Source of the DNA: Allostella sp. ATCC 35155 | GTDB lineage: Bacteria > Pseudomonadota > Alphaproteobacteria > ATCC43930 > Allostellaceae | Direction of reading: 5' to 3' | Length of the DNA stretch: 64,000 nt | Assembly: GCA_006738865.1 (NCBI GenBank) | Contig: AP019701.1 | Coordinates: 4,646,001 to 4,710,000 of the forward strand | In this document: positions 16,955 through 35,568 of the stretch, piece by piece | Numbering within the stretch: the stretch's first letter is position 1 | Layout of the letters: every line of letters starts with the position of its first letter | The notes under the pieces: model-generated | What the model saw: only the letters and a program-made list of their open reading frames with translations | Told to the model about the DNA's origin: nothing | Databases searched by the model: none | Translations under genes and position numbers: made by a program

Positions 16955-17123
16955 GCACTGGGCAAGGGCGGTAGCCGCCCTCGCGGAGGCCGGGACACTA
17001 CGCAAACGGTCCCCCACATGCAAGGCCGGAATTCGTGCTTTCGGCCGGCGCGAAGCAATGCACCGGCTGGCCGGTTTGGCGGGGTGCGCTACATGGCTGG
17101 CGTCGCTCATGAAGGAGGGATTG

Positions 17124-17540
17124 ATGGTCCGCCGCATCGCCGCCCTGCTCCTGTTCTGCATCCTCGGTTCGCCCGTCGCGGCGCAGGCGCCGGAGGATCG
17201 GACCGCCATCGAGCGGGTGATCCGGGAGCAGATGGCCGCCTTCCGCACCGACGACGCGGCCACGGCCTTCGCGTTTGCCGCGCCATCCATCCAGGCGATG
17301 TTCGGGACGCCGGACAAATTCCTGGCGATGGTCCGCCGCGGCTATGCGCCCGTCTACCGGCCGCGCTCGGTCGAGTTCCGCGAACTCGGGCGACAGGACG
17401 GCAATCCGGTGCAGCGCGTGCTGGTGATCGGCCCGGACGGCGTGCCCGAGGTCGCCCACTACGTCATGGAACGACAGCCGGACGGCAGCTGGCGGATCGC
17501 CGGCTGCTTCCTGACCCGGAGCGAGGAGCGCACCACCTGA
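17124..17540 (+). CDS. Exported DUF4864-like protein
   Basis: A 138-residue secreted protein. ATG 17124 follows GGAGG closely; an alternative ATG sits 15 bases upstream. The signal peptide is MVRRIAALLLFCILGSPVAAQA. The mature part (IERVIREQMAAFRTDDAATA, AFAFAAPSIQAMFGTPDKF, MVRRGYAPVYRPRSVEF, YVMERQPDGSWRIAGC) fits the DUF4864 family, an NTF2-like alpha/beta fold of unknown role. It lies between tRNA-Arg and the phosphoribosyltransferase and may be transcribed with the latter. Confidence 0.82.
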   Translation: MVRRIAALLLFCILGSPVAAQAPEDRTAIERVIREQMAAFRTDDAATAFAFAAPSIQAMFGTPDKFLAMVRRGYAPVYRPRSVEFRELGRQDGNPVQRVLVIGPDGVPEVAHYVMERQPDGSWRIAGCFLTRSEERTT

Positions 17541-17584
17541 GGCCGCCCGTTGTCCGCGCCCCGGAGCTCGGATAAGCAGGAGGC

Positions 17585-18052
17585 ATGAGCGATCCCTACC
17601 GCCACAGCCTCGCGGTCTCCTGGGAGGAGTTCCACCGCCTGTCGCGCCTCCTGTCGGAGCGGCTCCTGGAACACGCGCCGTGGCGGATGCTGGTGGCGGT
17701 GACGCGCGGCGGCCTCGTGCCGGCAGCGATCGTCGCGCGCGAACTCGACCTGCGCGTCGTCGATACGCTGTGCATCGCCAGCTACGACGACCGGACCCGC
17801 GGCGCGCCCGAAGTGTTGAAGGCGGCCGGGGCCGGCGACGGCGACGGCGTGCTGGTGGTCGACGACCTGGTCGACACCGGCGTCACGGCGCGCGTCATGC
17901 GCGGGCTGCTGCCGAAGGCGCATTTCGCCACGGTCTTCGCCAAGCCCGAGGGCCGGCCGCTGGTCGACACCTTCGTCGCCGAGGTCGGCCAGGACACCTG
18001 GATCGTCTTCCCCTGGGACCAGCACCCGCCCCTGGCGGGCGGGCGCCGGTAG
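17585..18052 (+). CDS. gpt: Xanthine-guanine phosphoribosyltransferase
   Basis: A 155-residue purine salvage enzyme that joins xanthine, guanine or hypoxanthine to PRPP. The PRPP-binding motif is VLVVDDLVDTGVTA; the flexible-loop region RGGLVPAAIVARELDLRVVD and the C-terminal IVFPWDQ match the Gpt type. It is a short cytosolic or peripheral enzyme. It converges on the solute-binding protein gene with only 14 bases between the stops. Confidence 0.9.
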   Translation: MSDPYRHSLAVSWEEFHRLSRLLSERLLEHAPWRMLVAVTRGGLVPAAIVARELDLRVVDTLCIASYDDRTRGAPEVLKAAGAGDGDGVLVVDDLVDTGVTARVMRGLLPKAHFATVFAKPEGRPLVDTFVAEVGQDTWIVFPWDQHPPLAGGRR

Positions 18053-18066
18053 CCCCTGCGGCGCGC

Positions 18067-19551: not shown

Positions 19552-19560
19552 CGGGGCTGT

Positions 19561-19594
19561 GCCTCCAGGCGGACCGGGCCTCCAGGCGGACCGG
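19561..19594 (-). repeat. 17-bp tandem duplication carrying the ribosome-binding site
   Basis: GCCTCCAGGCGGACCGG occurs twice head to tail at 19561-19577 and 19578-19594. Read on the minus strand each unit contains TGGAGG, so the binding-protein gene has two copies of its ribosome site, one at a workable distance from the ATG. Confidence 0.85.
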
Positions 19595-19721
19595 GAACGC
19601 CGCGGACGATAGCAGGCATCGCGCCAAGCCGGAACGATCTCTCCCGATTGCGCGTCGCCCGGCCGCCCGCGACGTGCTAAGGAGAAGTGGAATTCCCGCC
19701 GCAGCACCGGGTCCCAAGCCG

Positions 19722-20036
19722 ATGATCCGCCGTCTCTTGCCCTTGCTCCTGCCGATTGCCCTCGCCGCCTGCGCGGCGCCCTCGGCCAGGGAGATGTATC
19801 CCACTCCCGGCACCGCGCTGGCGCCCACTGCCGAGCTGGTGGAATGGGAGAACGCCCCCGAGCCGGTCGACCTGCCCGACCCGGCGGCGACCCGCGACGC
19901 ACCCCGCGGCCCGCCGCCCCTGCCGACCGAGCCGCTGCCGCGCCAGCGCCGGCTGCCTGGATTCGGCAACGAGACCGGCGGGTTCAACGACCCGCTCGGC
20001 CCGCTGCCCGGGACCGTGACCCGCCAGGGCTTCTGA
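19722..20036 (+). CDS. Small proline-rich lipoprotein
   Basis: A 104-residue protein from ATG 19722 with a lipoprotein signal peptide, MIRRLLPLLLPIALAAC; the LAAC lipobox places the lipidated cysteine at residue 17. The mature chain is rich in Pro, Arg and acidic residues (PEPVDLPDP, PRGPPPLPTEPLPRQRR) and ends GGFNDPLGPLPGTVTRQGF. No domain is recognised; it may be a disordered envelope lipoprotein. It is divergent from the solute-binding protein and convergent with an M81 peptidase. Confidence 0.65.
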   Translation: MIRRLLPLLLPIALAACAAPSAREMYPTPGTALAPTAELVEWENAPEPVDLPDPAATRDAPRGPPPLPTEPLPRQRRLPGFGNETGGFNDPLGPLPGTVTRQGF

Positions 20037-20069
20037 CGCCAGGCTTCTGGCGTCAGGGCTTCTGACGCC
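20026..20069 (+). terminator. Stem-loop and triple direct repeat at the end of the lipoprotein gene
   Basis: TGACGCCAG (20034-20042) pairs with CTGGCGTCA (20047-20055) around a 4-base loop, using the stop codon as part of the stem. The same stretch consists of three direct repeats: AGGGCTTCTGACGCC at 20026 and again at 20055, with a variant AGGCTTCTGGCGTC between. There is no T-run. Confidence 0.5.
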
Positions 20070-20098
20070 CGGGCCGCCGAAGCCCGTCTGCGCCCGCC

Positions 20099-21616
20099 CT
20101 ACCAGGCGGGCGGGGTCCAGGTGGCATCGGCGTCGAGCGGGAAGAGCGGCCGCACGACGTTGCGGAACTCGAAATTGCCGAGATTGGGCGAAGTCAGGCC
20201 GGGCACGTCCGCCTCGATCACCTGGTCGGGGCGGAAGTACTTCGAGAAGCCGGCGCGGAAATGGCCGCGCGACTTCACGACGACGGTGCGCGCGTCCGTT
20301 ACCGACACGCCGATATTCTCGAAATAGCCCGGGTCGATCGTCTGCTGGCGCTTGCTGATGACGGCGACCTTGATGGTGCCGACCTGCAGCACCGCCGTCG
20401 GGCCGAGATCGACCGTCATGCCGGCGCGCGAGCCACCCTCCTGGCCGACGAAGACGCCATCCGAGAGGCCGAGGACGGTCGCCGGCGCCGAGAACGGCTC
20501 CGACCGGGCGTCGTCCTCCGCGCGGTTGAAATGCGCGTCGAAGCGGGCGCCGACACCGAGCCGATGCGCCTCGGCGGCGAGCGGCGCGTCGAAGAGATGG
20601 CCGAGGACGACGCCCTCCGCCTTCGCCTCGTAGAGGGCGCGCAGGAGCCAGACGGTGTTGCCGCGACCACCGCCGCCCGGATTGTCGGCGACGTCGGCGA
20701 TGACGGCCGCCGGCAGCGACGGATCGGCCGCGCGCGCGAGTGCACCCGCGACGCAATCCTCTGCCGAGGTCAGGCGCGGCACGAAGCGATGGCGCTCGGC
20801 CCAGGTCCGCTCCGCCAGCTCGCGGCACAGGCTGCGCGCGCGGGCCTCGTCGCCCCGGGTCGTGACGATGAAGGCCATGCCGTTGTAGGGCGTGTCGCCA
20901 TAGGTGAAACCGCCCAGGATCGAGACGTTGAGCACGGTGTCGTCGAGCCTGGTCTGGCCATAGTCGATGATCTCGCCATACGGTCCGGACGCGGTGAGCT
21001 GGGTCACCTGGGGCGCCATCAGCGGCAGGCGGATGAAGGCCTTGGCGGTCTTCATGCCGGCCAGCAGGTCGCGCATCGCCCGGGCGCATTCGCGACCGCG
21101 CTCGACCTGGTCGACGTGCGGGTTGGTGAGATAGGCCGAGACATAGTCGACCATGTCGACCATCTCGTCCGAGACCATGGCGTGGAGGTCGAGGATGGTG
21201 ACGATCGGCACCGAGGGGCCGACGATCGCGCGCGCCATCGCATAGAGCTCGCCGTCCGGATCGTGGCTGCCGGTCGAGATCGAGGCGCCGTGCTCGGCGA
21301 AGTAGACGCCGTCGAGCGGCATCGCCGCCTCCAGCCCGCGGCGCATCTCCTCCTTCAGCTCGAGATACATGGCGTGGTCGAGCGGGCCGGCGGCGCCGGC
21401 GTCGGCCAGCACGATCGGCATCGGCGTCCAGGCGCCGCTCTCGTCCATGCCGCGGACGAAGCCGACGGTGCCGCCGGTGACGCGCGGGTGCGGCGCGCGT
21501 GCATCCTCGACCAGCGCGGCGCCGCTGGTGATGCGCATGTCCGCGCGATGGACGACGGGCGCCCAGCGGTTTCCTTCGTGATGCAGACCGAGAACGGCGA
21601 TGCGGGGGGCGGTCAT
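20099..21616 (-). CDS. M81 family metallopeptidase (MlrC-like), paralogue 1
   Basis: A 505-residue zinc metallopeptidase of the M81/MlrC family, whose founder cleaves linearised microcystin. ATG 21616 gives MTAPRIAVLGLHHEGNRWAP. Family features are YFAEHGASISTGSHDPDGEL, TILDLHAMVSDEMV (the DLH motif is the likely metal site), IRLPLMAPQVTQLTA, ADVADNPGGGGRGNT and a C-terminal DUF1485-type domain (VKSRGHFRAGFSKYF). No signal peptide is visible, so it should act in the cytosol. It lies 44 bases downstream of a second, similar M81 gene and is probably translated from the same mRNA. Real substrates may be small cyclic or modified peptides or amides. Confidence 0.9.
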   Translation of the reverse strand: MTAPRIAVLGLHHEGNRWAPVVHRADMRITSGAALVEDARAPHPRVTGGTVGFVRGMDESGAWTPMPIVLADAGAAGPLDHAMYLELKEEMRRGLEAAMPLDGVYFAEHGASISTGSHDPDGELYAMARAIVGPSVPIVTILDLHAMVSDEMVDMVDYVSAYLTNPHVDQVERGRECARAMRDLLAGMKTAKAFIRLPLMAPQVTQLTASGPYGEIIDYGQTRLDDTVLNVSILGGFTYGDTPYNGMAFIVTTRGDEARARSLCRELAERTWAERHRFVPRLTSAEDCVAGALARAADPSLPAAVIADVADNPGGGGRGNTVWLLRALYEAKAEGVVLGHLFDAPLAAEAHRLGVGARFDAHFNRAEDDARSEPFSAPATVLGLSDGVFVGQEGGSRAGMTVDLGPTAVLQVGTIKVAVISKRQQTIDPGYFENIGVSVTDARTVVVKSRGHFRAGFSKYFRPDQVIEADVPGLTSPNLGNFEFRNVVRPLFPLDADATWTPPAW

Positions 21617-21660
21617 GGGGGATCCTTGGGCAGGGTCGGGCGACGGGCAGGCGGATAGTG

Positions 21661-23190
21661 TCAGTTGGGCGGCGTCCACTCGGCATCCTGGTCGAGCGGA
21701 TAGATCGGCCGCGGGACGCTGCGGAAGTCGAAATTCTCCAGCCGCGGCGAGGTGAGGCCCGGCACGTCCGCCTCGATCACCTGGTCCGGCTGGAAGTAGC
21801 GCAGGAACCCGGCGCGGAAGTGCCCGCGCGACTTGACGACGACGGTGCGCGCCGTCGCCACCGGCACCCCGACATGCTCGAGATAGCCGGGGTCGATGCA
21901 TTGCTGCCGCCGGGTGATGACGACGACCGTCACGTTGCCGACCTGCAAGGCGGCGGTGGGCCCCAGATCGACCATGGTGCCGGCCGCGCTGCCATCGACC
22001 GCGCCGGCGAACACCCCGTCGGAGAGGCCGACGACGGTCGCCTTCGCGGTGAAGGGCCGCGAGCGCGGCTCGGTCTCGGCACGGTTGAAGAAGGCGTCGA
22101 AGCTGGCGCCCATCCCCAGCCGGTGCGCCTCCGCCGCCAGCGGCGGATCGGTGAAGACGCCGAGCACGACGCCCTCGGCGCCGGACGCGTGCAGCGCCTC
22201 GAGCAGCCAGGTCGTGTTGCCGCGGGCGCCGCCGCCGGGGTTGTCGGCGACGTCGGCGATGCAGATCGGCTTGCGGCTGCGGTCGCGGCCGGCCTCGACC
22301 GCCAGGCGCACGCAGTCGTCGAGGCTGGTCAGCTTCGGCAGAAAGCGCTCGCGGTAGGCCCAGACCCGGCCCGCCAGCTCCTTGCAGACGTCGCGCGCGC
22401 GGGCGCCGTCGCCGCGGGTGGTGACGATGAAGGCCATGCCCTGGTCGGGCGTGTCGCCATAGGTGAAGCCGCCCAGGATCGAGACGTTCATCACCGTCTC
22501 GTCGACCTTGGTCTGGCCATAGGCGATGATCTCCGCATAGGGGCCGGCGGCGGTCAACTGGGAGACCTGCGGCGCCATCAGCGGCAGGCGGATGAAGTGA
22601 TGCTCGGTCTTCAGCCCGGCCAGCAGTTCGCGCATCGCGACCGCCGCCTCGCGGCCGCGCGCCGACTGGTCGGTGTGCGGGTTGGTGCGGTAGGCGACGA
22701 GCAGGTCGGTCGCCTGCACCATGCGGTCGGAGACGTTGGCATGGAGGTCGAGCGTGGCGACGATCGGCACGTCGGGGCCGACGATGTCGCGCGCCATCTG
22801 GAACAGCTCGCCGTCGGGATCGAGCTCCTCGGTGGTGATCGAGGCGCCGTGCTGCGGGAAATAGACGCCGTCCACCGGCAGCGCCGCCGTCAGCGCCCGG
22901 CGCATGTGCTCGCGCACCCGGACGTACCAGCCATGCTCGATCGCCCCGGCCGCGCCGCAGTCGAGATAGGTGATCGGCACCGGCATCCACGGGCCGGTCA
23001 CGTCCATCGCCCGCACGAAGCCCCAGAGCCCGCCCATCGAGCGGGGCCGGTCCGAATTGGCATCGGCCATCAGCGCCTCACCGTCGAGCCGACCCCACTC
23101 GCGCGTGTCGGCCTCGGTGAGGGGGGGCGCGAAACGGCTGCCCTCGTGATGGATGCCGAGGATGGCGATGCGCGGGCTGGCTTTGGACAT
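21661..23190 (-). CDS. M81 family metallopeptidase (MlrC-like), paralogue 2
   Basis: A 509-residue paralogue of the downstream gene, starting at ATG 23190 (MSKASPRIAILGIHHEGSRF). It shares the same motif order: YFPQHGASITTEELDPDGEL, ATLDLHANVSDRMV, IRLPLMAPQVSQLTAAGPYA, IADVADNPGGGARGNT, VVKSRGHFRAGFLRYF. The two proteins are alike along their whole length, so they arose by tandem duplication with later divergence, probably to handle different substrates. The divergent MntA gene starts 65 bases away. Confidence 0.9.
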   Translation of the reverse strand: MSKASPRIAILGIHHEGSRFAPPLTEADTREWGRLDGEALMADANSDRPRSMGGLWGFVRAMDVTGPWMPVPITYLDCGAAGAIEHGWYVRVREHMRRALTAALPVDGVYFPQHGASITTEELDPDGELFQMARDIVGPDVPIVATLDLHANVSDRMVQATDLLVAYRTNPHTDQSARGREAAVAMRELLAGLKTEHHFIRLPLMAPQVSQLTAAGPYAEIIAYGQTKVDETVMNVSILGGFTYGDTPDQGMAFIVTTRGDGARARDVCKELAGRVWAYRERFLPKLTSLDDCVRLAVEAGRDRSRKPICIADVADNPGGGARGNTTWLLEALHASGAEGVVLGVFTDPPLAAEAHRLGMGASFDAFFNRAETEPRSRPFTAKATVVGLSDGVFAGAVDGSAAGTMVDLGPTAALQVGNVTVVVITRRQQCIDPGYLEHVGVPVATARTVVVKSRGHFRAGFLRYFQPDQVIEADVPGLTSPRLENFDFRSVPRPIYPLDQDAEWTPPN

Positions 23191-23254
23191 GCGGGTGGCT
23201 CTCGGAGGCGGAAGGCAGGGCGCCGGGGCGGGGATCGATGCTAGGATAACCTTA

Positions 23255-23572
23255 ATGACGAACCCGGCCGCAACCTTGTTGCCCCCGTCGGTGCTGGAGC
23301 CGTTCTGCCGGCGCTGGCGGATCCGGGAGTTCGCCGTATTCGGCTCGATTCTGGGGCCGGAGTTCCGGCCGGACAGCGACATCGACGTGCTGGTGACATT
23401 CGATCCCGACGCGGACTGGTCGCTGATCGACCTCGTTCGGATGGAGGAGGAACTGTCCGGCGCGACCGGCCGCCGGGTCGACCTCCTGACCCGGCGCGGT
23501 GTCGAGGCGAGCCGCAATCCGATCCGACGCGCCGCGATCCTTAGCCAAGTGCGAACCCTCTATGCGGCCTGA
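23255..23572 (+). CDS. mntA: MntA-type nucleotidyltransferase antitoxin
   Basis: A 105-residue minimal nucleotidyltransferase. The signature FGSILGPEFRPDSDIDVLV has GS, ten residues, then DxD, exactly the MNT active-site pattern. MntA proteins neutralise HepT toxins by adding AMP groups to the toxin's RX4HXY tyrosine. The start is ATG 23255 (MTNPAATLLPPSVLEPF). The downstream hepT gene begins inside the last codons of mntA. All antitoxin active-site residues are present even though the partner toxin is broken. Confidence 0.85.
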   Translation: MTNPAATLLPPSVLEPFCRRWRIREFAVFGSILGPEFRPDSDIDVLVTFDPDADWSLIDLVRMEEELSGATGRRVDLLTRRGVEASRNPIRRAAILSQVRTLYAA

Positions 23573-23919
23573 TCGGCGACGGGATTCCGCGAGCCTTCTC
23601 GATGCACTGCAGGCCAGTGTGGACGCTGTCGCCTTCTGCCAGGGGATGACACAACGCGACTTCCTCGCAGACCGAAAAACTCAGGCTGCTGTCCAACACC
23701 AGCTTCTGGTGCTGGGAGAAGCCGTCAAACGCATCTCAGAAACGACGCGGGCAGAGTGGAGCGAGGTGCCGTGGAGAGCGGTCGCGGGAACCCGCGACCG
23801 CTCTCCACGGATATGATTCCGTCGACCTGTCCATCGTCTGGTCGATGGTTGCCCGCGACTTACCCGACCTCATCGAGCAGCTGCGACGAATCCTCGCCGC
23901 CATCCGACCAGACTCCTGA
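23562..23919 (+). pseudogene. hepT: hepT toxin gene inactivated by a frameshift at the RX4HXY motif
   Basis: HEPN-domain (DUF86) toxin partner of MntA. ATG 23562 lies within the mntA end and starts MRPDRRRDSASLLDALQASV. The chain is normal through VLGEAVKRISETTRAEWSEV and PWRAVAGTRDR, where the RNase motif R-x4-H-x-Y should follow. Instead the frame reads SPRI and stops at 23816. The expected continuation HGYDSVDLSIVW...ARDLPDLIEQLRRIL is found intact in another frame from 23806 to the stop at 23917-23919. Two bases are missing relative to a restored frame. The lesion coincides with one arm of a perfect palindrome (23769-23810). Confidence 0.85.
23769..23810. repeat. Perfect 20-bp-arm palindrome inside hepT
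   Basis: CCGTGGAGAGCGGTCGCGGG (23769-23788) is followed by AA and then its exact reverse complement (23791-23810). It covers the codons for PWRAVAGTRDR and ends at the frameshift. A normal hepT would have a near-palindrome here; see the findings for the proposed mechanism. Confidence 0.97.
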
Positions 23920-23924
23920 TCGGC

Positions 23925-24785
23925 CTACCCCGCATCCAGCCCGAGATCGAGGGCCGGGGCGCTGTGGGTGATCCAGCCGGCGGAGATGATGTCGACGCCG
24001 GTGGCGGCGATGGCGCCGACCGTGGCGGCGGTGATCCGGCCTGAGGCTTCGGTGACGGCCCGCCCGGCGACGATGGCGACGGCCCGGCGCAGAATTTCGG
24101 GCGGCATGTTGTCGAGGAGCACGGCATCGGGCCCTTCGGCCATCGCCTGGGCGAGCTGGTCGAGATCGTCGACCTCCACCTCGACCTTGACCATGTGGCC
24201 GACCGAACGGCGCGCCCGCCGCACGGCCTCGGCGACGCCGCCCGCGACGGCGATGTGGTTGTCCTTGATGAGGACGCCGTCATCGAGGCCGAAGCGGTGG
24301 CTGACCCCGCCGCCGGCGCGCACCGCATGCTTCTCCAGCGCGCGCAGGCCGGGCGTCGTCTTGCGCGTGCAGGTGATGCGCGCCGGGTGCGGCCGCGCGG
24401 CAGCGACGAGGCCGGCGGTCGCGGTGGCGATGCCGGAGAGGTGGCAGAGGAAGTTGAGCGCCACCCGCTCGGCCGTGATGATCGCCCGCGCCGGCCCGTC
24501 GAGGCGCAGCACCGCGTCGCCGGGCGCAACCGGGCTACCGTCCGGCCGCTCGACCGCGATGCGGACCGCCGGATCGACGAGGCGGAAGGCGATGGCGGCC
24601 GTCGCGATGCCGGCGACGACGCCCGGCTGGCGAGCGACGACGGCGCCGCGGAAGTGGGCGTCCGCCGGCACCACCGCCGCCGTCGTGATGTCGCCGGCGC
24701 GGCCGAGATCCTCCAGCAGCGCCGCGCGCACGAGAGGTTCCACCAGGAGATCGGGCAGCGCCTCGACGATCGCACCGGTCGCCAT
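23925..24785 (-). CDS. nadC: Nicotinate-nucleotide diphosphorylase (quinolinate phosphoribosyltransferase)
   Basis: A 286-residue cytosolic enzyme converting quinolinate and PRPP to nicotinate mononucleotide in de novo NAD synthesis. Motifs include LLEDLGRAGDITTAAVVP, NFLCHLSGIATAT, ITCTRKTTPGLRALEKHAVR, the DDGVLIKDNHIAVAGG loop and GVDIISAGWITHSAPALDLGLD near the end. Its ATG overlaps the nadA stop by one base (TGATG), so the two are translationally coupled. It converges on the broken hepT gene with 5 bases between. Confidence 0.96.
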   Translation of the reverse strand: MATGAIVEALPDLLVEPLVRAALLEDLGRAGDITTAAVVPADAHFRGAVVARQPGVVAGIATAAIAFRLVDPAVRIAVERPDGSPVAPGDAVLRLDGPARAIITAERVALNFLCHLSGIATATAGLVAAARPHPARITCTRKTTPGLRALEKHAVRAGGGVSHRFGLDDGVLIKDNHIAVAGGVAEAVRRARRSVGHMVKVEVEVDDLDQLAQAMAEGPDAVLLDNMPPEILRRAVAIVAGRAVTEASGRITAATVGAIAATGVDIISAGWITHSAPALDLGLDAG

Positions 24786-25777
24786 CAGCGCACCGCCAGC
24801 ATGCGCTCGACCGCGCGGCGGGCGCGGTCCGCGATCGCGGGGTCGACCTCGACGGCGTGGGTCATCGTCTCCAGCGCATGGCGGATGTTGCCGAGGTCGA
24901 TGCGCTTCATGTGCGGGCAGAGGTTGCAGGCGCGCACCAGCTCGACCTCCGGCACCTCGGCCGCGACATTGTCGCTCATCGAGCACTCGGTCAGCAGCAG
25001 CGCCCGGGCCGGCCGGCGGTCGCGCACCCAGTCCGTCATCTGCTGGGTGGAGCCGACGAAGTCCGCCGCGGCCAGCACGTCGGGTGGACATTCGGGGTGC
25101 GCGATCACCTCGATCCCGGCATGGGCGCCGCGGACGCGCGCGATGTCGGCAGCGCTGAAGCGCTCGTGGACCTCGCAGTGGCCGTGCCAGGCGATGATCC
25201 GCTTCGTCGTGCGGCCGGCGACCCAGTTCGCCAGATACTCGTCGGGCAGGAAGAGGACGGCATCGCCCGGCAGCGATTCGACCACCCGCTCGGCATTGCC
25301 CGACGTGCAGCAGATGTCCGCCTCGGCCTTCACTGCCGCCGAGGTGTTGACGTAGACCGCGACCGGCACACCCGGATGACGCTCGCGCAGCAGCCGGACG
25401 TCCGCGGCGGTGATCGAATCCGCCAGCGAGCAGCCGGCCCGGAGGTCGGGGATCAGCACCGTCCGGCCGGGGTTCAGGATCTTCGCGGTCTCGGCCATGA
25501 AATGGACGCCGCACAGGACGATGACCTCGGCCTCGGTCCGCGCCGCCTCGCGGGCCAGCGCCAGCGAGTCGCCGACGATGTCGGCGACGCCGTGATAGAT
25601 GTCCGGCGTCTGGTAGTTGTGGGCGAGGATCACCGCGTTGCGCGCACGCTTGAGGCGCAGGATGGCGTCGATGTCGTCCGCGACCTCGTGCCATTCCGCC
25701 GCCGGGATGATCCCGTCCAGCCGCCGCCGGGCGGCGTCGAGCCGCGCCCCGTCGGAAGACCGTTCCGCCACCAGCAT
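24785..25777 (-). CDS. nadA: Quinolinate synthase
   Basis: A 330-residue [4Fe-4S] enzyme that condenses iminoaspartate with dihydroxyacetone phosphate to give quinolinate. The three cluster cysteines are recognisable at [25 protein letters not shown] and [31 protein letters not shown] is the classic N-terminal motif. ATG 25777 is preceded by AGGAGG. No nadB is in the cluster, so iminoaspartate must come from a gene elsewhere (NadB or aspartate dehydrogenase). The promoter region carries palindromes that fit control by the NadQ regulator encoded just upstream. Confidence 0.96.
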
Positions 25778-25787
25778 CTCAACCTCC

Positions 25788-25844
25788 TTATACTCCGATC
25801 GAGTATTTCAGAGGTAATTCTAAGCCTGAGTATAAGCCTGTCAA
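25788..25844 (-). promoter_or_regulatory. nadA promoter with candidate NadQ operators
   Basis: On the minus strand TTGACA (25844-25839) and TAGAAT (25822-25817) are 16 bases apart, a good sigma-70-type promoter. Between them sits TTATACTC (25835-25828), and downstream lies the perfect inverted repeat ATACTC, 5 bases, GAGTAT (25790-25806), which extends to GAGTATAA just before the ribosome site. NadQ is known to regulate nad genes in alphaproteobacteria through such palindromes; linking these exact sites to it is an inference. Confidence 0.65.
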
Positions 25845-25851
25845 GAACGGA

Positions 25852-26820
25852 TCAGGCCGCCGGCTGGCGCGGTCGTGGCAGGCGGAGGCCCGGCGCGGGA
25901 CGCTCCAGCAGGACTTCCGAGCGGAAGCGCAGCAGTCGGGCGGGCCGGCCGCCCGTCTCGGTCGTCACCTCGCCCGTTTCCTCCACCAGGCCCTGCTGCT
26001 CGACGAGGCGCCGGAAGTTCGGCTTGTGCAGGCGGATGCCGGCCAGCCCTTCCACCGTCTGCTGAAGCTGCAGGAAGGTGAAGGCGGGCGGCATCAGCTC
26101 GAAGACGATCGGCCGGTACTTGATCTTTCCGCGCAGCCGGCCGATGGCGGTGGCGAGGATGCGACGATGGTCGGCACGCATGACGCTGCCTTCACCCACC
26201 CCTGGCGGAGCCCCTGCTTCCGACACCAACCCGGCGCCATAGAGCAGTTCGTAGCGCTCCAGGACGCGGTCCTCGATCCAGCCGTCGCCGCCCGTCCCGA
26301 AGGTCGCGGCGAGGCGGTCGCGGCGCAGCTGGCGCGCGCCGGCGGTCGCCCCCGAATCGGCCCAGGCGACGAGGCGCGCCTCCAGCCGGTCGAGCGCTGC
26401 CGGCTGCCCGTCGCGCCGGTCCTCCCACGGAAACCAGCGATACCATCCTTCCCACGCGGCATCGGCGCTGCCGGCGGGCCGCGCCTCGCGCACGAGCGCG
26501 AGATAGCCGATCGACAGGGCGCGAACGCCGGGATCGCAGGCCGTCCGGTCGCGGTCGCCGAAGGTATAGAGCTGCTCGACATGGCCGAGTTCCTGGCGCG
26601 TCTGCTCGGCGACCCAGCTGCGCAGGCCGGCCTCCAGCGTGCGGTGGGTTGCCTCCAGCGGGCCCGACGGCAGGCCCGGCGCACCACCTCCTTCGCCGCG
26701 CAGCGCCAGCACCGAGGGGCCGGCCGGCGTGGCCGCCACGATGGCGGCGCTGAGTTCGACCGTCACCTGGCCGGGCGCAGGCGGCGCTTCGTCGGACTCG
26801 GGCACCCGGCTTTCGGACAT
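25852..26820 (-). CDS. nadQ: NadQ-like Nudix-related transcriptional regulator of NAD synthesis
   Basis: A 322-residue protein from ATG 26820. The N-terminal two-thirds is a Nudix-like fold (QVTVELSAAIVAATPAGPSV, LEAGLRSWVAEQTRQELGHV, YTFGDRDR, ALSIGYLALVREARPAG), but the canonical Nudix box glutamates (REx2EExGx) are missing, so it should sense a ligand rather than hydrolyse it. The C-terminal third (GKIKYRPIVFELMPPAFTFL, LQQTVEGLAGIRLHKPNFRR, ETGGRPARLLRF) is a winged helix as in NrtR/NadQ. Its position directly upstream of nadA-nadC, with palindromes in between, supports a role as their repressor. It starts 4 bases after the M48 peptidase stop, so it may be read from that gene's transcript. 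Confidence 0.8.
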   Translation of the reverse strand: MSESRVPESDEAPPAPGQVTVELSAAIVAATPAGPSVLALRGEGGGAPGLPSGPLEATHRTLEAGLRSWVAEQTRQELGHVEQLYTFGDRDRTACDPGVRALSIGYLALVREARPAGSADAAWEGWYRWFPWEDRRDGQPAALDRLEARLVAWADSGATAGARQLRRDRLAATFGTGGDGWIEDRVLERYELLYGAGLVSEAGAPPGVGEGSVMRADHRRILATAIGRLRGKIKYRPIVFELMPPAFTFLQLQQTVEGLAGIRLHKPNFRRLVEQQGLVEETGEVTTETGGRPARLLRFRSEVLLERPAPGLRLPRPRQPAA

Positions 26821-26824
26821 GCTC

Positions 26825-27928
26825 CTATCGTAGCGCGGGAACCATTGCCGCATCACGACCGGCGGCATCCGGATCGTCCGCTTCCGGATCGTCCGGGCCG
26901 GTATCGGCCGGCGGATGCGGGGCAAGCGGCCCCGGATCGCGTCCTCCGGCAAAGGCGACGAGCGCGGCAACCCGCTCCTGCACCGTCGGATGGGTCGCGG
27001 TCAGCCGTGCGAAGAAGCCCCGGTCGGCCGGATGGTCGATCATCATCGCCTGCAGATCCTCCGGAACGCGGGGCATGGCCGAGCGACCCTCTATCTTCCG
27101 CAGGGCCGAGATCATCGCGTCGGGATTGCGGGTCAGCTCGACCGCGCCGGCATCGGCCATGAACTCCCGCGTGCGGGAGAGGGAAAACCGGATGACGACC
27201 GCGAGCAGGCGGGCCAGCAGGAGGCAGGCGACGGCGATCAGGATCAGCAGGATCGCCGCCCCGGCATTGCCCTTGCGGTTGCCTCCCGAGCCACCGGAGC
27301 GGCCGAGGCGGCCGCCGGACCCAAGCGGGATTCGTCTCCAGCCTCGGCCAAGGAGGTCGGCGAGCAGCGAGACGATGCCGACGAAGACCGTCGCCACCAT
27401 CAGCAGTCGCACGTCGCCGTGACGGATATGGCTCAACTCGTGGGCCAGCACCGCCTCGAGCTCGGGCGGCTCCAGCGCCTCCAGCAGCCCGCGGGTGACG
27501 ACGACGGTGTACTGCTCGCGCGTCACGCCGGCCGCGTAGGCGTTGAGGGCATCGGTTTCGATGATGCCGAGGCGCGGCGTCGGCAGGCCGCGGGCGATGC
27601 ACAGCGTCTCCAGCATCGCGTGGAGCTGCGGCTCGTCGCGCCGCCCGACCATGCGGGCGCCCGTCATGGCGCCGACCAGGCGGACGTTCCAGAACCAGGC
27701 GACCGCGAACCAGAGGAGCGCGGCCGCCACCGCCAGCGCCGCCAGGAGCGGCAGGCGGCGCGCCGCCTCGGCGAGGCCGGCGCCGACGCTCTGCGCCTCG
27801 CCCGCCGCGAGCAGCAGGGCCACGGCATAGGCGACGAGCAGCAGCAGGACGGGGAAGCCCGCCAGCAGGGCGAGCGAGCGCAGCCCGTTGTTCCAGAGAT
27901 GGGTCTTCAGACCTATGGCGGTGATCAT
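26825..27928 (-). CDS. M48 family metallopeptidase (HtpX-like)
   Basis: A 367-residue inner-membrane zinc protease. Two hydrophobic segments precede the catalytic domain (LALLAGFPVLLLLVAYAVALL and LPLLAALAVAAALLWFAVAWF), followed by LGIIETDALNAYAAGVTREQ, the zinc motif AVLAHELSHIRHGD, and two more hydrophobic stretches; the third ligand is the Glu in SRTREFMADAGAVELT. A glycine/serine-rich low-complexity loop separates helices. The C-terminal tail is acidic and disordered. It follows a lemA gene with about 24 bases between, a recurrent LemA plus M48 pairing thought to act in envelope quality control. Confidence 0.9.
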   Translation of the reverse strand: MITAIGLKTHLWNNGLRSLALLAGFPVLLLLVAYAVALLLAAGEAQSVGAGLAEAARRLPLLAALAVAAALLWFAVAWFWNVRLVGAMTGARMVGRRDEPQLHAMLETLCIARGLPTPRLGIIETDALNAYAAGVTREQYTVVVTRGLLEALEPPELEAVLAHELSHIRHGDVRLLMVATVFVGIVSLLADLLGRGWRRIPLGSGGRLGRSGGSGGNRKGNAGAAILLILIAVACLLLARLLAVVIRFSLSRTREFMADAGAVELTRNPDAMISALRKIEGRSAMPRVPEDLQAMMIDHPADRGFFARLTATHPTVQERVAALVAFAGGRDPGPLAPHPPADTGPDDPEADDPDAAGRDAAMVPALR

Positions 27929-27952
27929 GGCCGGCGCCCGTTCCAGCCGGGA

Positions 27953-28510
27953 TCAGAAGGCGACGCGCGGCGGGGCCTCGACGACCTTGCGCTCGTCCAC
28001 GCCGAGTTCGAAGAAGGCGCGGGCGCGGAAGCCGAGGGCGCCCGCGAAGAGGACTGCCGGCACCTGCTCGATCGCCGCGTTGAATTCCGACACCGCGTTG
28101 TTGAAGAAGCGGCGGGCCGCGGCAATGCGGTTCTCAAGGTCGGAGAGGTCGCGCTGCAGCTCGAGGAAATTCGTCGCCGCCTTCAGGTCGGGATAGGATT
28201 CGGCGAGCGCGAAGAGGCGGCCGAGCGCGCCCGACAGGGCCGCCTCGGCCCGCCCGGCCTCGCCCGGCCCATGGGCGGCGACGGCGGCATTGCGGGCGGC
28301 CACCACCTGTTCCAGCGTCTGGCGCTCATGGCCGGCATAGCCTTTCACGGTCTCGACGAGGTTCGGCACCAGGTCGTGCCGCTGCTTCAGCTGGACGTCG
28401 ACGTCGGCCCAGGCCTGGTTGGTCGTCTGCCGCAGCGCGACGAGCCGGTTGTAGACGAACACCAGCCACAGCACGACCGCCGCTGCGACGCCGATCACGA
28501 TCCATTCCAT
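27953..28510 (-). CDS. lemA: LemA family protein
   Basis: A 185-residue protein starting at ATG 28510 (MEWIVIGVAAAVVLWLVFVY) after a GGAGAGG site. One N-terminal membrane helix is followed by the conserved LemA segment YNRLVALRQTTNQAWADVDV, QLKQRHDLVPNLVETVKGYA, and the later ENRIAAARRFFNNAVSEFN. LemA proteins are helical, anchored with a periplasmic or extracellular bulk, and of unclear function. It is the first gene of an apparent lemA, M48 peptidase, nadQ run. Confidence 0.92.
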   Translation of the reverse strand: MEWIVIGVAAAVVLWLVFVYNRLVALRQTTNQAWADVDVQLKQRHDLVPNLVETVKGYAGHERQTLEQVVAARNAAVAAHGPGEAGRAEAALSGALGRLFALAESYPDLKAATNFLELQRDLSDLENRIAAARRFFNNAVSEFNAAIEQVPAVLFAGALGFRARAFFELGVDERKVVEAPPRVAF

Positions 28511-28622
28511 TGCCAACACCTCTCCCCGGACCCGGCACCTCAGGGGCGCCGTGTATCGCCCCTGCGTCGCGCCGCGCCAGCTTCCGGTTCAGACGCAGGT
28601 TCGTCGGACCGGCCCGCGGCGC

Positions 28623-29036
28623 TCACGCCGACAGCACGGCCACCGCGCGCCGCTCCGCCGCGGCAATCAGTGCCGAGTCGCAGGATGCGAGCGGAACCCG
28701 CTTGCGCAAGGCCAGCTCGAGGTAGGCTGCATCGTAGGGCGTCAGGCCTTCATCGCGCGAAAGCTGCCGGGTCGCGCCCCATGCCTGCCGGTCGGTGTCC
28801 TCGTCGACACGGATCGCGAGGCGCCCCAATCGCACGAGCGAGCGGTCGACATACGCCTCCTCGCACCGACCGCGCCGGACTGCATTGCACAGGAAGTTGA
28901 CGACCTCCAGCCGCCACAGGCCGGGAACGAAGGCGCCCTCGGCGGCGACGCGACGCAGCACCGCATGCGCGCCTGCGGTCCGTTCGTCGTCGAACAGCCA
29001 GGCGACCGCCATGGAAGCGTCGAGGACGACGCTCAC
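28623..29036 (-). CDS. VapC-family PIN-domain ribonuclease toxin
   Basis: A 137-residue PIN-domain toxin, apparently intact. The N-terminal acidic residue is in SVVLDASMAVAWLFDDE, a further acidic residue is in LWRLEVVNFL, and the C-terminal pair is in EGLTPYDAAYLELALRKRVP and LASCDSALIAAAE. It should cleave RNA in a Mg-dependent manner when released from its antitoxin. ATG 29036 overlaps the antitoxin stop as ATGA, the standard antitoxin-first order. Unlike the other toxins in this window no lesion is seen. Confidence 0.88.
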   Translation of the reverse strand: MSVVLDASMAVAWLFDDERTAGAHAVLRRVAAEGAFVPGLWRLEVVNFLCNAVRRGRCEEAYVDRSLVRLGRLAIRVDEDTDRQAWGATRQLSRDEGLTPYDAAYLELALRKRVPLASCDSALIAAAERRAVAVLSA

Positions 29037-29299
29037 CCGCGGCGACCCTCGTCGAGCAGTTCCCGGATCGACACATCTCCCAGGGAGTGGCGACTGCTGT
29101 CGGCGACGATCTCGGCTGCCGCCGCAGCCGCGTCCTGTCGCGCCCGGATATGGGCTGCCCGCCGTCGGACGACGAGATCGCCGTCCTGGAGTTCAACCTC
29201 CACCGTCTCGCCGTCGGCCAGACCGGACGCACGAGCGACATCCATGGGAACCCGGATGGCGAGGTTCTTGCCCCATTTCCCCACGATACTGTGCGTCAT
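29033..29299 (-). CDS. AbrB/MazE-type antitoxin of the VapC pair
   Basis: An 88-residue protein from ATG 29299, preceded by GGAGAG. The N-terminal swapped-hairpin AbrB DNA-binding domain is clear: HSIVGKWGKNLAIRVPMDVA, RASGLADGETVEVELQDGDL, VVRRR. The C-terminal half (ADSSRHSLGDVSIRELLDEG) should wrap around the VapC toxin. It would repress its own promoter together with VapC. The gene overlaps vapC by 4 bases. Confidence 0.88.
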   Translation of the reverse strand: MTHSIVGKWGKNLAIRVPMDVARASGLADGETVEVELQDGDLVVRRRAAHIRARQDAAAAAAEIVADSSRHSLGDVSIRELLDEGRRG

Positions 29300-29486
29300 C
29301 CGGACTCTCCCCATCTCAGAATAGTCTGGGATATCCTCAATTGGAGCGCAAGTCGCAGACACGGAACGGCGGGCGCTGGCTGTGGGCCGGCGCCCTCACG
29401 GCCGTCCGGCAGGCGGTAGCGGCCCTTGGCATGGTCACCTTCGCCGCACTCATCGCCGCCGCCAGCTTCCGGCCGCGGCCGCGCAG

Positions 29487-30131
29487 TCAGAGCTTCTGAG
29501 CGAAACGCGGCCCCGGGATGAGGTCGTAGGGAGCCTGCCAGCCCGGCAGGCCCGCGATCCGGCCGAGCCAAGCGGCGACCGCCGGATGGGATTCCGGCAG
29601 GTCATAGCCCGTCTCCTCGGCGGGATAGTAGAGGTAGGCGCACATCGAAAGGTCGGCGACGGTCGGACGGTCGCCCGCGGCGAACGGCATCTGCTCGAAA
29701 TGGCGCTCGGCGACGGCGAGCGCCCCGTCGACACGGCCGCGAAAGAAGGCGAGCACGTCGGCGCTCGGCGTCGCGGAGAACGCGCGCAGGAAGCGATAAG
29801 TGGCGAGATAGCTCGTCAGCTTGTGATTGTCCCACAGCAGCCAGCGCAGGATCTCGTAGCGCTCGGCGTCGGTTTCGCCCTGGAAGCGGCCATGGCGTTC
29901 GGCTAGGCGCAGCAGGGCGGCACCGGTCTGGGTCAAGCGCGTGCCGTCCTCCTCCAGGACGGGGATCTCGCCCATTTCGTTGACGCTGGCGCGCCATTCC
30001 GGCGAGCGCGTCTGGCCGCCGAAGAAGTCCGTCCAGACGGGCTCCCAGGACTGGCCGCACAGGGTCAGCATCAGGCCGAGCTTGTAGCTGTTGCCGGACT
30101 CCGGAAAGCAGTGGAGGCGATACTGGGGCAT
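29487..30131 (-). CDS. Glutathione S-transferase family protein
   Basis: A 214-residue cytosolic protein with an N-terminal thioredoxin-like domain (YRLHCFPESGNSYKLGLMLT, then NEMGEIPVLEEDGTRLTQTG, where the cis-proline and glutathione-binding residues lie) and an all-helical C-terminal domain (RPTVADLSMCAYLYYPAEE, containing the conserved N-capping box). It likely conjugates or reduces with glutathione; the substrate is unknown. It is preceded closely by tRNA-Gln on the same strand. Confidence 0.9.
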   Translation of the reverse strand: MPQYRLHCFPESGNSYKLGLMLTLCGQSWEPVWTDFFGGQTRSPEWRASVNEMGEIPVLEEDGTRLTQTGAALLRLAERHGRFQGETDAERYEILRWLLWDNHKLTSYLATYRFLRAFSATPSADVLAFFRGRVDGALAVAERHFEQMPFAAGDRPTVADLSMCAYLYYPAEETGYDLPESHPAVAAWLGRIAGLPGWQAPYDLIPGPRFAQKL

Positions 30132-30192
30132 GGCGGGGCTCCCGGATCCGTCGGTGGTGGCGCGGTCTCTCGCGCACTTCGGCCGGCCGGTC

Positions 30193-30267
30193 TGGCTGGG
30201 GCGCCAGGATTCGAACCTGGGAATGGCGGAATCAAAATCCGCTGCCTTACCACTTGGCTACGCCCCA
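30193..30267 (-). tRNA. tRNA-Gln (anticodon TTG), with encoded CCA
   Basis: The minus strand forms a cloverleaf with acceptor TGGGGCG/CGCCCCA, anticodon stem GCGGA/TCCGC with loop TTTTGAT (anticodon TTG), T-loop GTTCGAATC, discriminator G and genomic CCA. The U1-A72 acceptor pair is typical of tRNA-Gln. Confidence 0.97.
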
Positions 30268-30386
30268 ATGCCCACCGACACGGGCGGCCGGCAAACTAGT
30301 CGGCGGCGCGCCTGCGGGCAAGGGCGGCACGACCCGTGCTATCCAGGGCCTTCGGACCACCATTCTCGCCAGCCGCGGTGCCCATC

Positions 30387-31100
30387 ATGTCGCACGCCGA
30401 CGAACCGGCCCTCGTCCTCCTCTCGGGCGGCCAGGATTCCGCCACCTGTCTCGCCTGGGCGCTCGACCGCTTCGGTCGGGTCGAGACCCTGGGCTTCGAC
30501 TATGGCCAGCGCCATCGCATCGAGCTCGACTGCCGGCCGCGCCTGCGCGAGGGCATGGCGGCCGTGCGGCCGCAATGGGCGGAGCGACTGGGACCGGACC
30601 ACATGCTCGACCTCTCGACGCTGGGGCAGATCAGCGACACGGCCCTGACGCGCGAGACGGAGATCACGATGACGGCGGCCGGGCTGCCCAGCACCTTCGT
30701 GCCCGGCCGCAACCTGCTGTTCTTCACCTATGCCGCCGCGCTCGCCTATCGCCGCGGCATCCGCCACCTCGTCGGCGGCATGTGCGAGACCGACTATTCG
30801 GGCTATCCCGACTGTCGCGACGACACGCTGAAGGCCCTCCAGGTGGCGCTGACGCTGGGGCTCGACCGGCGTGTCACCATCCACACGCCGCTGATGTGGC
30901 GGGACAAGGCGGCGACCTGGGCCCTGGCCGAGACGCTGGGCGGCACGGCGCTGGTCGACCTCATCCGCGAGGACACGGTGACCTGCTATCTGGGCGACCG
31001 CCGCCACCGCCACGACTGGGGCTATGGCTGCGGCACCTGCCCGGCCTGCGAACTGCGGCGCGCCGGCTGGGAGGGATACGAGGTGGCCTCCCGCACCTAG
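30387..31100 (+). CDS. queC: 7-cyano-7-deazaguanine synthase
   Basis: A 237-residue ATP-dependent enzyme that turns 7-carboxy-7-deazaguanine into preQ0 on the queuosine pathway. The PP-loop is [18 protein letters not shown]; other family motifs are [42 protein letters not shown] and the zinc site [20 protein letters not shown] 30387 is chosen because it puts the PP-loop at the usual distance from the N-terminus. Its stop codon lies 8 bases before the terminal stem-loop of cassette copy B, which may also terminate queC. Confidence 0.95.
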
Positions 31101-33239: not shown

Positions 33240-33319
33240 GGCGGGGGAAGATAGACGATCGGCCGCAATCTCCAAACCGTCCTGCTCCGAAGCCCCGCCG
33301 GTCGCCCAGGTTCCCACCC

Positions 33320-34252
33320 ATGATGCTCCGCGCCCTCACCGTCCTCGGCCGCAACGGCACCCGCGTGCTGGCGCTCGGCATCCTCGTCGGACTGGCCCTT
33401 CCCGGCCTTGCGCGGGAGTTGAAACCATGGCTGCCCGTCGCCGTCGCCATGACCATGGTCGGCTCGATGCTGCGCCTCGAATGGGGCGAGATCGCCCGGC
33501 AGGTCCGGGCCTGGCCGCGCGTCCTGCTGGTCCTCGCCTGGCTGATGCTGGCCGCCCCCATCCTGGTGGCGGTCGTCGCCCGCGCCTTGCCGCTGCCGCC
33601 CGGCCTGGTCACCGCCATGGTGCTGTCGGCGGCCGCGCCCTGCATCATGTCGGCCCCCGCCATCTGCCTGCTGCTGGGGCTGGACGGGGCGCTGGCCCTG
33701 GTCGTGATGGTGCTGGCGCACCTGCTGGCGCCGCTCACCGTGCCGCCGCTGGCGCTGGGGCTGGTCGGGGTCACGCTGGAGATCGGCATGGCCGAGCTGA
33801 CGCTGCGGCTCGCCGGCTTCGTGCTCGGCGCCGCGGCGGCGGCCGAGGCGATCCGCCGCATCGTCGGGGCGGAGCGGATGCGCACCCACGCCGACGCGGT
33901 CAACGGCTTCAACATGCTGGTGCTGGTCGTCTTCGCGATCGCGATCATGGACGGCGTGACGGACGCCGCCATCGCCGACCCTGCGCTCGTGCTGGTCTAT
34001 CTGGCCGCCGCGCTCGTCTTCAACGCCGGCCTGCAGGCGGCCGGCTGGTTCGCCTTTCGCGGGACGGGCGCCCCGGCGGCGCTGGCGGCCGGATTCATGA
34101 CCGGCAATCGCAACATGGGGCTGATGTGGGCGGCGCTCGGTGCCGACACCGCCATCGGCATCACCCTCTATTTCGCGGTCGCGCAACTGCCGATGTACAT
34201 CTTCCCGGCCCTGCAATCGCGCCCCTACCGCCGATGGACACGGGGCGCCTGA
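33320..34252 (+). CDS. Bile acid:sodium symporter-like (BASS) transporter
   Basis: A 310-residue integral membrane protein with about nine or ten helices. The BASS/SBF pattern is visible: LALGILVGLALPGLARELKP, AMVLSAAAPCIMSAPAICLL, and the second-half motif AAGFMTGNRNMGLMWAALGA, which corresponds to the crossed-helix sodium-site region. It probably imports or exports an organic anion with sodium; substrate unknown. ATG 33320 is immediately followed by another ATG (33323). It converges on the ACT-like gene, with DnaA-box-like sequences in between. Confidence 0.78.
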   Translation: MMLRALTVLGRNGTRVLALGILVGLALPGLARELKPWLPVAVAMTMVGSMLRLEWGEIARQVRAWPRVLLVLAWLMLAAPILVAVVARALPLPPGLVTAMVLSAAAPCIMSAPAICLLLGLDGALALVVMVLAHLLAPLTVPPLALGLVGVTLEIGMAELTLRLAGFVLGAAAAAEAIRRIVGAERMRTHADAVNGFNMLVLVVFAIAIMDGVTDAAIADPALVLVYLAAALVFNAGLQAAGWFAFRGTGAPAALAAGFMTGNRNMGLMWAALGADTAIGITLYFAVAQLPMYIFPALQSRPYRRWTRGA

Positions 34253-34283
34253 GCCCCGGTCATCGGCAGTTTTCCCGCCAAAT

Positions 34284-34324
34284 TGTGGATAAGCTTGCGG
34301 ATAAGGCCCCTCGCCTGTGGATAA
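34284..34324. promoter_or_regulatory. Cluster of three DnaA-box-like sites
   Basis: TGTGGATAA occurs at 34284-34292 and 34316-34324; both are perfect reverse complements of the DnaA box TTATCCACA. TGCGGATAA at 34296-34304 has one mismatch. All three point the same way with start-to-start spacings of 12 and 20 bp, in the 91-bp gap between two convergent genes. This may be a DnaA-binding (titration or reactivation type) site; origin activity is unproven. Confidence 0.5.
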
Positions 34325-34343
34325 GAGGGGTGAACAACCCCGC

Positions 34344-34679
34344 TCAAGCCGTTACGGCGAAACGCTTCTCGGAAACGAGGACAACTTCCACGCCGACGAT
34401 CTGGCGCATGCAGCGGGCAACGTAGTCCGCGAGTTCGCGGTCCATTCCCTCCATCTGGACGTCGATCGACAGCTCGTCGCCGTCGCGCCCCTCGGTCCGC
34501 GCGACGAAGGCCGAGGGCACGAGGTCGCGCTTGGCGAAGAGTTCCAGCACGCGCGGCATGAGGCCGGGCGTGGAGCGCGCGTTGAGGGAAAAGCAGGCGG
34601 TGGTGCGGGTGGTGGCGCCGACGGCGGCGCGCAGGTCGCTCGCGCTACGATCGGGGCGACGGGATTCCAGGTATTGCAT
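34344..34679 (-). CDS. Small ACT-like domain protein
   Basis: A 111-residue protein from ATG 34679 (MQYLESRRPDRSASDLRAAV). The central part, TACFSLNARSTPGLMPRVLE, LFAKRDLVPSAFVARTEGRD, IDVQMEGMDRELADYVARCM, has the beta-alpha-beta pattern and spacing of an ACT domain as in the acetolactate synthase small subunit family (IlvM-like). It may bind an amino acid and regulate a partner enzyme. No partner lies beside it. Confidence 0.6.
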   Translation of the reverse strand: MQYLESRRPDRSASDLRAAVGATTRTTACFSLNARSTPGLMPRVLELFAKRDLVPSAFVARTEGRDGDELSIDVQMEGMDRELADYVARCMRQIVGVEVVLVSEKRFAVTA

Positions 34680-34840
34680 GACGCGGCAGCCTTCTCGGAT
34701 GCAAATGGACAAACGACGATGCCCGGCTCTCGAAGAGAACCGGGTCCGTAATTCGCCCACCGATCCGACGCTGCGCGTGGAACACCATGTCCCGAAGATA
34801 GGAGCGGCAGCGGTTCCGGTCAATGCACAGGGGCGCTAGG

Positions 34841-35287
34841 ATGCCGCCCGCCATGCTTCTTCGCCGCCTGCTCCTCGTCCTCCTTCTCTCGCTCGCCCCC
34901 GGCCTGGCCGGGGCGGGCGAGGCGCAATGGCAGGCATTCGCCGCCCGCGTCGGTCTCGCCGATGTCGAGGCCTTCGTCGAGACCATCGGCCATCTCGACC
35001 GCACCGGGCGCCTGCCGTCGCGCTACGTCACCAAGGGCGAGGCCCGGGCCCTCGGCTGGCAGCCGGGCCGCGATCTCTGGGCGGTCGCGCCGGGGCGCAG
35101 CATCGGTGGGGACATCTTCGGCAATCGCGAGCGCCGCCTGCCGCCGCTGGCGCGCAATGCCTACCGCGAGGCCGACCTCGACTATCGCGGCGGCCGGCGC
35201 AACGCCCGGCGGCTCGTCTTCGGGACGGACGGCTCGCGCTGGGTGACCATGGACCATTACGACACGTTCGAACGGGTGCCGCGATGA
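34841..35287 (+). CDS. Secreted barnase-family ribonuclease
   Basis: A 148-residue guanyl-preferring RNase of the barnase/N1 family. ATG 34841 follows an AGGGG site; the signal peptide (LLLVLLLSLAPGLAGAGEA) directs export. The barnase signature is strong: LPSRYVTKGEARALGW, VAPGRSIGGDIFGNRERRLP, and YREADLDYRGGRRNARRLVF with WVTMDHYDTF. The counterparts of barnase Glu73, Arg83, Arg87 and His102 are all present (in READ, GRRN, ARR and DHY). The barstar gene overlaps its stop codon, protecting the cell from the enzyme before export. Confidence 0.93.
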   Translation: MPPAMLLRRLLLVLLLSLAPGLAGAGEAQWQAFAARVGLADVEAFVETIGHLDRTGRLPSRYVTKGEARALGWQPGRDLWAVAPGRSIGGDIFGNRERRLPPLARNAYREADLDYRGGRRNARRLVFGTDGSRWVTMDHYDTFERVPR

Positions 35288-35568
35288 CCCTCCCCCGCCG
35301 CATCGTCATCGAGGGCGCCGCGATCGCCACGCTCGCCGACGGCTGGGAAGCGCTGGCCGCCCTGCTCGACCTTCCGCCCCATTTCGGGCGCAACCTCGAC
35401 GCCCTCCACGACAGCCTGACGACCGACGTCGCGGGACCGGTCGCGATCGAATGGCGCGATGCCGCCGCCAGCCGCGCCGCGATGGGTGCGGCGTTCGACC
35501 GCCTGCGGGAGACGATCGCCGAGGCCGCAGCGACGCGCCCCGACCTGAGCGCCAGCTTCGGCGACTGA
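35284..35568 (+). CDS. Barstar-family ribonuclease inhibitor
   Basis: A 94-residue cytosolic inhibitor, starting at ATG 35284 inside an ATGA overlap with the barnase stop. The barnase-binding helix and loop read LPPHFGRNLDALHDSLTTDV; the two aspartates corresponding to barstar Asp35 and Asp39 (NLDALHD) are present. The fold ends with the GPVAIEWRDAAAS strand. It should bind the RNase active site one-to-one in the cytoplasm. The pair forms an intact toxin-immunity unit. Confidence 0.92.
   Translation: MTLPRRIVIEGAAIATLADGWEALAALLDLPPHFGRNLDALHDSLTTDVAGPVAIEWRDAAASRAAMGAAFDRLRETIAEAAATRPDLSASFGD

Follow-up and report, generated by a model that had tools for sequence, protein, structure and literature searches.

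Layout of the DnaA-box cluster

The window, the whole stretch of 64,000 bp, covers positions 4646001-4710000 of the Stella sp. ATCC 35155 chromosome, which is a single contig of 5,339,096 bp. Stella cells are star-shaped, and DnaA is the initiator of chromosome replication. Two genes converge there on a short intergenic gap holding three DnaA boxes (Table 1). The initial annotation had described three boxes of the same direction within 41 bp (34284-34324), two exact and one near-exact, between genes that both end at this site. Re-examination bore this out: all three boxes lie on the minus strand, a single mismatch in box 2 is the only departure from the exact word, and the SBF-family gene (plus strand) and the small gene (minus strand) converge on the gap. 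The boxes are separated by spacers of 3 bp (boxes 1-2) and 11 bp (boxes 2-3), giving a total layout of 41 bp; their starts are 12 and 20 bp apart, 32 bp together, which is close to whole helical turns.

Table 1. Features of the cluster and of the element upstream of uvrC. Positions are those of the window, except for the uvrC-upstream core (G000:C1).
Feature	Position	Strand	Description
SBF-family (sodium/bile acid symporter-like) gene	33320-34252	+	3' end faces the cluster
Convergent intergenic gap holding the cluster	34253-34343		91 bp
DnaA box 1	34284-34292	-	TTATCCACA, exact; reads TTATCCCCA in S. humosa and S. vacuolata
DnaA box 2	34296-34304	-	TTATCCGCA, one mismatch; same in all three complete Stella genomes
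DnaA box 3	34316-34324	-	TTATCCACA, exact; same in all three complete Stella genomes
Small protein gene	34344-34712	-	Stop at 34344-34346; listed ORF begins at 34823; 3' end faces the cluster
uvrC-upstream core	655409-655443 (G000:C1)	box I +, box II -, box III -	TTTTCCAC(G or C), TTATCCACA, TTCCCCACA; L268, L275

A Pfam-A search with the small protein gave no match. The gap had no match in Rfam, which yielded only two tRNAs in the whole window; a scan of 33300-35000 for intrinsic terminators returned nothing terminator-like; and none of six sequences folded better than their shuffled versions. A structured RNA or terminator was rejected on these three negative results. No long AT-rich stretch was seen in the 91-bp gap, and the region 34200-34830 had no match among plasmid records. 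Beside the cluster, we observed a barnase-barstar-like pair (34838-35568), with a ribonuclease domain (PF00545) followed by an ORF with a Barstar domain (PF01337).

The DnaA protein of Stella sp. ATCC 35155 contains GGRDHTTVMHA, which we take to be its box-reading signature. A search of the genome with Bac_DnaA (PF00308; E <= 0.001) matched dnaA only, so this model turned up no Hda-like protein. A C at position 7, as in box 1 of the relatives (TTATCCCCA), fits the weak W-box of Caulobacter, TCCCCA, as given in a passage of PMC4285127.

Rarity of the cluster

Six matches to the box with at most one mismatch were present in the window, compared with a mean of 1.49 (sd 1.28) after shuffling, and six were reached in 1 of 100 shuffles; three of the six sit inside the 41 bp. 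Exact TTATCCACA occurs five times in the genome, including two copies in the cluster. The reversed control word is commoner, with 13 occurrences, so the box itself is not enriched and the cluster alone is unusual. A sample of 64 stretches (1.262 Mb, of which 1.254 Mb distinct and 8 kb duplicated; about 23% of the genome) contained 32 boxes with one mismatch or none, and outside the cluster no two of them lay less than 100 bp from each other. At this density, a genome would be expected to hold about 1e-5 triples as tight as this on one strand, a value that agrees with the earlier claim that such clustering is unlikely by chance.

A pattern of three TGNGGATAA words with gaps of at most 30 was found in 3 of the 43 genomes of the order, all of them Stella, once in each and with no control match. 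The corresponding TGNGGATAA pair pattern was found in Stella sp. ATCC 35155, S. humosa and S. vacuolata at the cluster only. Across the class, 7 of 387 alphaproteobacterial genomes contained the triple pattern, and the matches listed included one control match. These seven comprised two hemE-maf gaps, two long arrays between glmU-/fabI-like genes, one other gap, one Stella genome, and a gap read by eye as lolD-dnaE; the hemE-maf and glmU-/fabI-like cases, four in all, look like oriC. Three small alphaproteobacterial genomes carry long TGTGGATAA arrays, probably their oriC; the array lies between maf and hemE in one of them (L194) and between glmU-/fabI-like genes in the other two (L195, and L196 by eye).

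Conservation of the cluster

S. humosa and S. vacuolata each have a single copy of the 41-bp layout, without indels. Across the three genomes, 26 of the 27 box columns are identical and 8 of the 14 spacer columns; identity in the flanks is 9/40 on the left (ungapped) and 33/40 on the right, where about half of the columns are the end of the small gene. The gap holding the cluster reached conservation values of 0.80 and 0.72, versus 0.26, 0.14 and 0.32 in three other convergent-gap comparisons of the window. Several tandem and divergent gaps of the window match it, in regions where gene calls are rough.

The check for conservation across strains proposed in the initial annotation thus gave a cluster kept in three of four Stella genomes; the fourth, the draft G002, has instead a single near-box, TTATCCACC, at the place matching box 3 (L010). 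At the 24 loci of the small gene in other genera (L011-L034), no cluster was found, and only two single boxes with one mismatch were present. Rearrangement was observed near the cluster: S. humosa and S. vacuolata have the block corresponding to 17000-31100 of the window in the opposite orientation, and the genes to the right of 34823 had no match in 100 kb of S. vacuolata sequence.

Position relative to the replication origin

Cumulative GC skew over the 64 sampled stretches of Stella sp. ATCC 35155 had its minimum at 5.08 Mb and its maximum at 2.41 Mb. A hemE match starts at 5,095,001, dnaA lies at the contig start, and the window spans 4.646-4.710 Mb. A two-arm fit of the skew left a residual of 115.1 for an origin at 5.06-5.08 Mb versus 220.9 for one at 4.68 Mb. 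The GC-skew check suggested earlier therefore puts the minimum outside the window, and the accompanying views that oriC was less likely here, and that dnaA and hemE were not nearby, are upheld. Since the sampled skew minimum and hemE, both at 5.08-5.10 Mb, put oriC about 415 kb away, identity of the cluster with oriC was rejected.

The origin probably lies at hemE, in the gap on its 5' side (5094620-5094985), near the sampled skew minimum. This gap contains box-like motifs common to the four Stella genomes, with CTGTGGACA present in all four as TTGTCCACA (three genomes) or CTGTCCACA (S. humosa). The divergent neighbor across this gap was read by eye as a ppsR-type regulator. In 2.1 kb scanned near dnaA in three genomes, each had a single one-mismatch box some 1 kb upstream of the gene and no other with at most one mismatch. 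The skew of S. humosa, from a thinner sample (27 stretches), had a minimum at 40 kb and a maximum at 2.59 Mb, with a curve that did not close. Counts of KOPS (GGGNAGGG) switched between 2.40 and 2.54 Mb and were too sparse for placing the origin.

The cluster, at 4.6803 Mb in Stella sp. ATCC 35155 and 5.2017 Mb in S. vacuolata, lies 414.7 kb from hemE in the former, 424.9 kb in S. humosa and 412.2 kb in S. vacuolata, on the same side in each case, which corresponds to 7.8%, 7.3% and 7.1% of the genome, respectively. An origin-proximal place of the datA type is thus kept in the three complete genomes, a constancy that synteny alone could explain.

Proposed role of the cluster

We give an even chance to the reading that the cluster is a non-coding, off-origin predicted DnaA-binding site of the genus Stella that sequesters DnaA. 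Several near-consensus boxes, more than expected by chance, lie together outside oriC, as in off-origin clusters. Titration clusters of other bacteria, such as those of Streptomyces and Bacillus, are likewise dense groups of intergenic boxes away from oriC. Boxes 1 and 2 stand head-to-tail at a spacing of 3 bp, which is one preferred by E. coli DnaA: according to passages of PMC11317965, box pairs 2 or 3 bp apart are bound in vivo, and such pairs are bound far better than single boxes. No double boxes with 2-bp spacing were found in the four Stella genomes. The E. coli double boxes described in the same passages (purH, polA, mutH/DARS2; PMC11317965) resemble boxes 1 and 2 in their 3-bp spacing, but lie upstream of genes, whereas the Stella pair lies between gene ends and is joined by a third box.

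DnaA would bind boxes 1 and 2 cooperatively, as a head-to-tail dimer, and could extend from there to box 3, which faces nearly the same side of the helix, to form a filament of two or three DnaA molecules. The early-replicated cluster would double soon after initiation and withdraw DnaA from oriC; it might also favor ATP hydrolysis in a datA-like manner. Titration, which has recently been argued for E. coli (passages of PMC12371093), is plausible for this site, although three boxes is a small number if titration works by count alone. The earlier suggestion of a titration or reactivation site is therefore retained in its first part, and its second part is dropped since all three boxes point one way.

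The cluster would be datA-like in role and position, which is not to say that it is datA. Both are off-origin and intergenic, and the datA stretch of E. coli also has same-strand boxes that include a 3-bp-spaced pair (L271 1733/1745). datA lies at about 10% of the genome from oriC, the cluster at 7-8%. On the other hand, datA needs its IHF site, and an exact IHF consensus is present in the datA stretch (L271 1810), whereas the exact consensus, TAANNNNTTGATW, was absent from the Stella window. A search of 34100-34500 for WATCAANNNNTTR gave only a one-mismatch site overlapping box 1 and a two-mismatch site, so that the IHF-binding site expected beside datA-type boxes was not found at the cluster. 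The cluster also differs from datA in that its boxes are packed in 41 bp and no tRNA operon adjoins it. According to passages of PMC4585315, datA, DARS1 and DARS2 keep their relative distances from oriC in E. coli.

Alternative explanations

The main rival, which we consider unlikely, is that bound DnaA acts as a roadblock or terminator, stopping transcription from one or both of the convergent genes and preventing their collision. Both genes do end at the cluster, the terminator scan was negative, and there are E. coli precedents in which RNA polymerase is hindered by DnaA located in the terminator region of asnC or on a datA box (passages of PMC10950094). Such a roadblock would, however, be a one-off solution, because the sampled quarter of the genome has no other close box pair. 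Moreover, GC-rich genomes commonly have terminators without T-runs.

It also seems improbable that the site is not read by DnaA or has no function, being kept by descent or for another protein or RNA. In favor of this reading, the site was found in three close relatives only and G002 lacks the cluster; the right flank is conserved too (33/40), about half of these columns being coding. Against this, the boxes stay while the spacers diverge, the left flank is unconserved, the chance expectation is about 1e-5, and the six folded sequences were no better than shuffles.

A DARS-type reactivation site is very improbable. DARS1 and DARS2 of E. coli also consist of three boxes in about 40 bp, with boxes II and III 3 bp apart like boxes 1 and 2 of the cluster, and the cluster lies outside oriC. 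In the DARS core, however, box I is opposite to boxes II and III and head-to-head with box II (passages of PMC5742627 and PMC10380432), whereas none of the cluster boxes is inverted and their starts are 12 and 20 bp apart, not 14 and 12 bp. Because all boxes point one way, identity with DARS was rejected; DARS geometry is present elsewhere in the genome, upstream of uvrC. Least probable of all is that the cluster is oriC or a second origin, for although four of the seven triple-direct-box clusters of the class look like oriC, the skew minimum, hemE and the poorer fit at 4.68 Mb speak against it, as does the lack of a long AT-rich stretch in the gap.

A DARS-geometry element upstream of uvrC

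Double boxes (3-bp gap, at most three mismatches) were searched for in the four Stella genomes. Stella sp. ATCC 35155 and S. vacuolata had two places each, S. humosa three and G002 one; control matches arose in G002 only (2). Among these places, the window cluster recurs in three genomes and a site upstream of uvrC in all four. The core of the latter (Table 1) is flanked by uvrC and by a short-chain dehydrogenase gene, which in turn adjoins uvrB; box II reads ATATCCACA in G002. In all four genomes (including L265, L266 and L267), box I is inverted and the starts are 14 and 12 bp apart, which is the geometry of DARS. Exactly the same distances occur in E. coli DARS1 (L270 1608/1622/1634) and DARS2 (L269 2136/2150/2162).

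The IHF consensus TAANNNNTTGATW, as quoted in a passage of PMC8682772, is present in exact form at +110 from box I in all four Stella copies. The sampled stretches of the Stella sp. ATCC 35155 genome contained no exact match to it. The E. coli DARS1 and DARS2 stretches likewise gave no match to this exact pattern, so the search yields no E. coli DARS2 distance with which to compare +110, a point against a full match to DARS2. Judging from its layout, the uvrC-upstream element may be a DARS-like station at which DnaA is "recharged".

The uvrC-linked element across Alphaproteobacteria

Of the 387 alphaproteobacterial genomes, 140 matched a DARS-core pattern built from the Stella cores (at most two mismatches), and the matches listed included no control match. 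We examined 90 places (L272-L361), made up of 30 loci, Stella included, and 60 of about 120 others listed; the 60 were taken down the list with skips, the 120 were counted by eye, and there were further matches beyond those listed. At 68 of the 90 places, a UvrC match was found on the same side as box I and oriented away from the core, its near end 38-689 bp off.

At these 68 loci, the IHF consensus occurred on the plus strand between +106 and +111 in exact form in 21 cases, with at most one mismatch in 42 and with at most two in 58. The control registers 86-91 and 126-131 gave 0 and 0 exact sites, 0 and 1 with at most one mismatch, and 0 and 6 with at most two, respectively, and the minus strand in the same register as the plus-strand sites gave 0, 0 and 11. 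Two further exact IHF sites were located at +76.

In E. coli, DARS1 and a uvrB promoter overlap (passages of PMC6015884), so the uvrC-linked element can be read just as simply as a site where DnaA regulates uvrC. In view of the same overlap, a link of DnaA recharging with excision-repair genes may be old.

It is possible, though we regard it as doubtful, that Stella has a DnaA nucleotide cycle like that of E. coli, with the cluster as its sequestering or inactivating half and the widespread DARS2-like uvrC-upstream element, which has the exact DARS core geometry and an IHF site at +107 to +110 bp, as its reactivating half; we infer the functions of both from sequence. If this were true, Stella would carry both arms of an E. 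coli-like DnaA control scheme, a two-arm arrangement known as enterobacterial. To our knowledge, recharging and withdrawal of DnaA outside the Hda pathway have been little explored in Alphaproteobacteria. The 41-bp site of the three complete Stella genomes and the uvrC-linked element offer concrete sequences for experiment, and the larger interest lies in the latter.

No DARS- or datA-like site of an alphaproteobacterium was described in the titles and abstract beginnings covered by our literature search. A passage of a review (PMC10380432) states that many proteobacterial species have conserved DARS1- and DARS2-like sequences, so the core as such may already be known. The linkage to uvrC and the fixed IHF register were not met in the titles, abstract beginnings and passages searched. 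The primary source for DARS-like sequences in proteobacteria is reportedly the 2009 DARS paper.

The 22 loci without a UvrC match had the IHF consensus at the same register in 0 (exact), 4 (at most one mismatch) and 8 (at most two mismatches) cases. For 12 of them, 20 neighbor proteins were scanned; HemE was not among these, and the proteins found included UvrB at one locus and a CDP-alcohol phosphatidyltransferase at another, together with various others.
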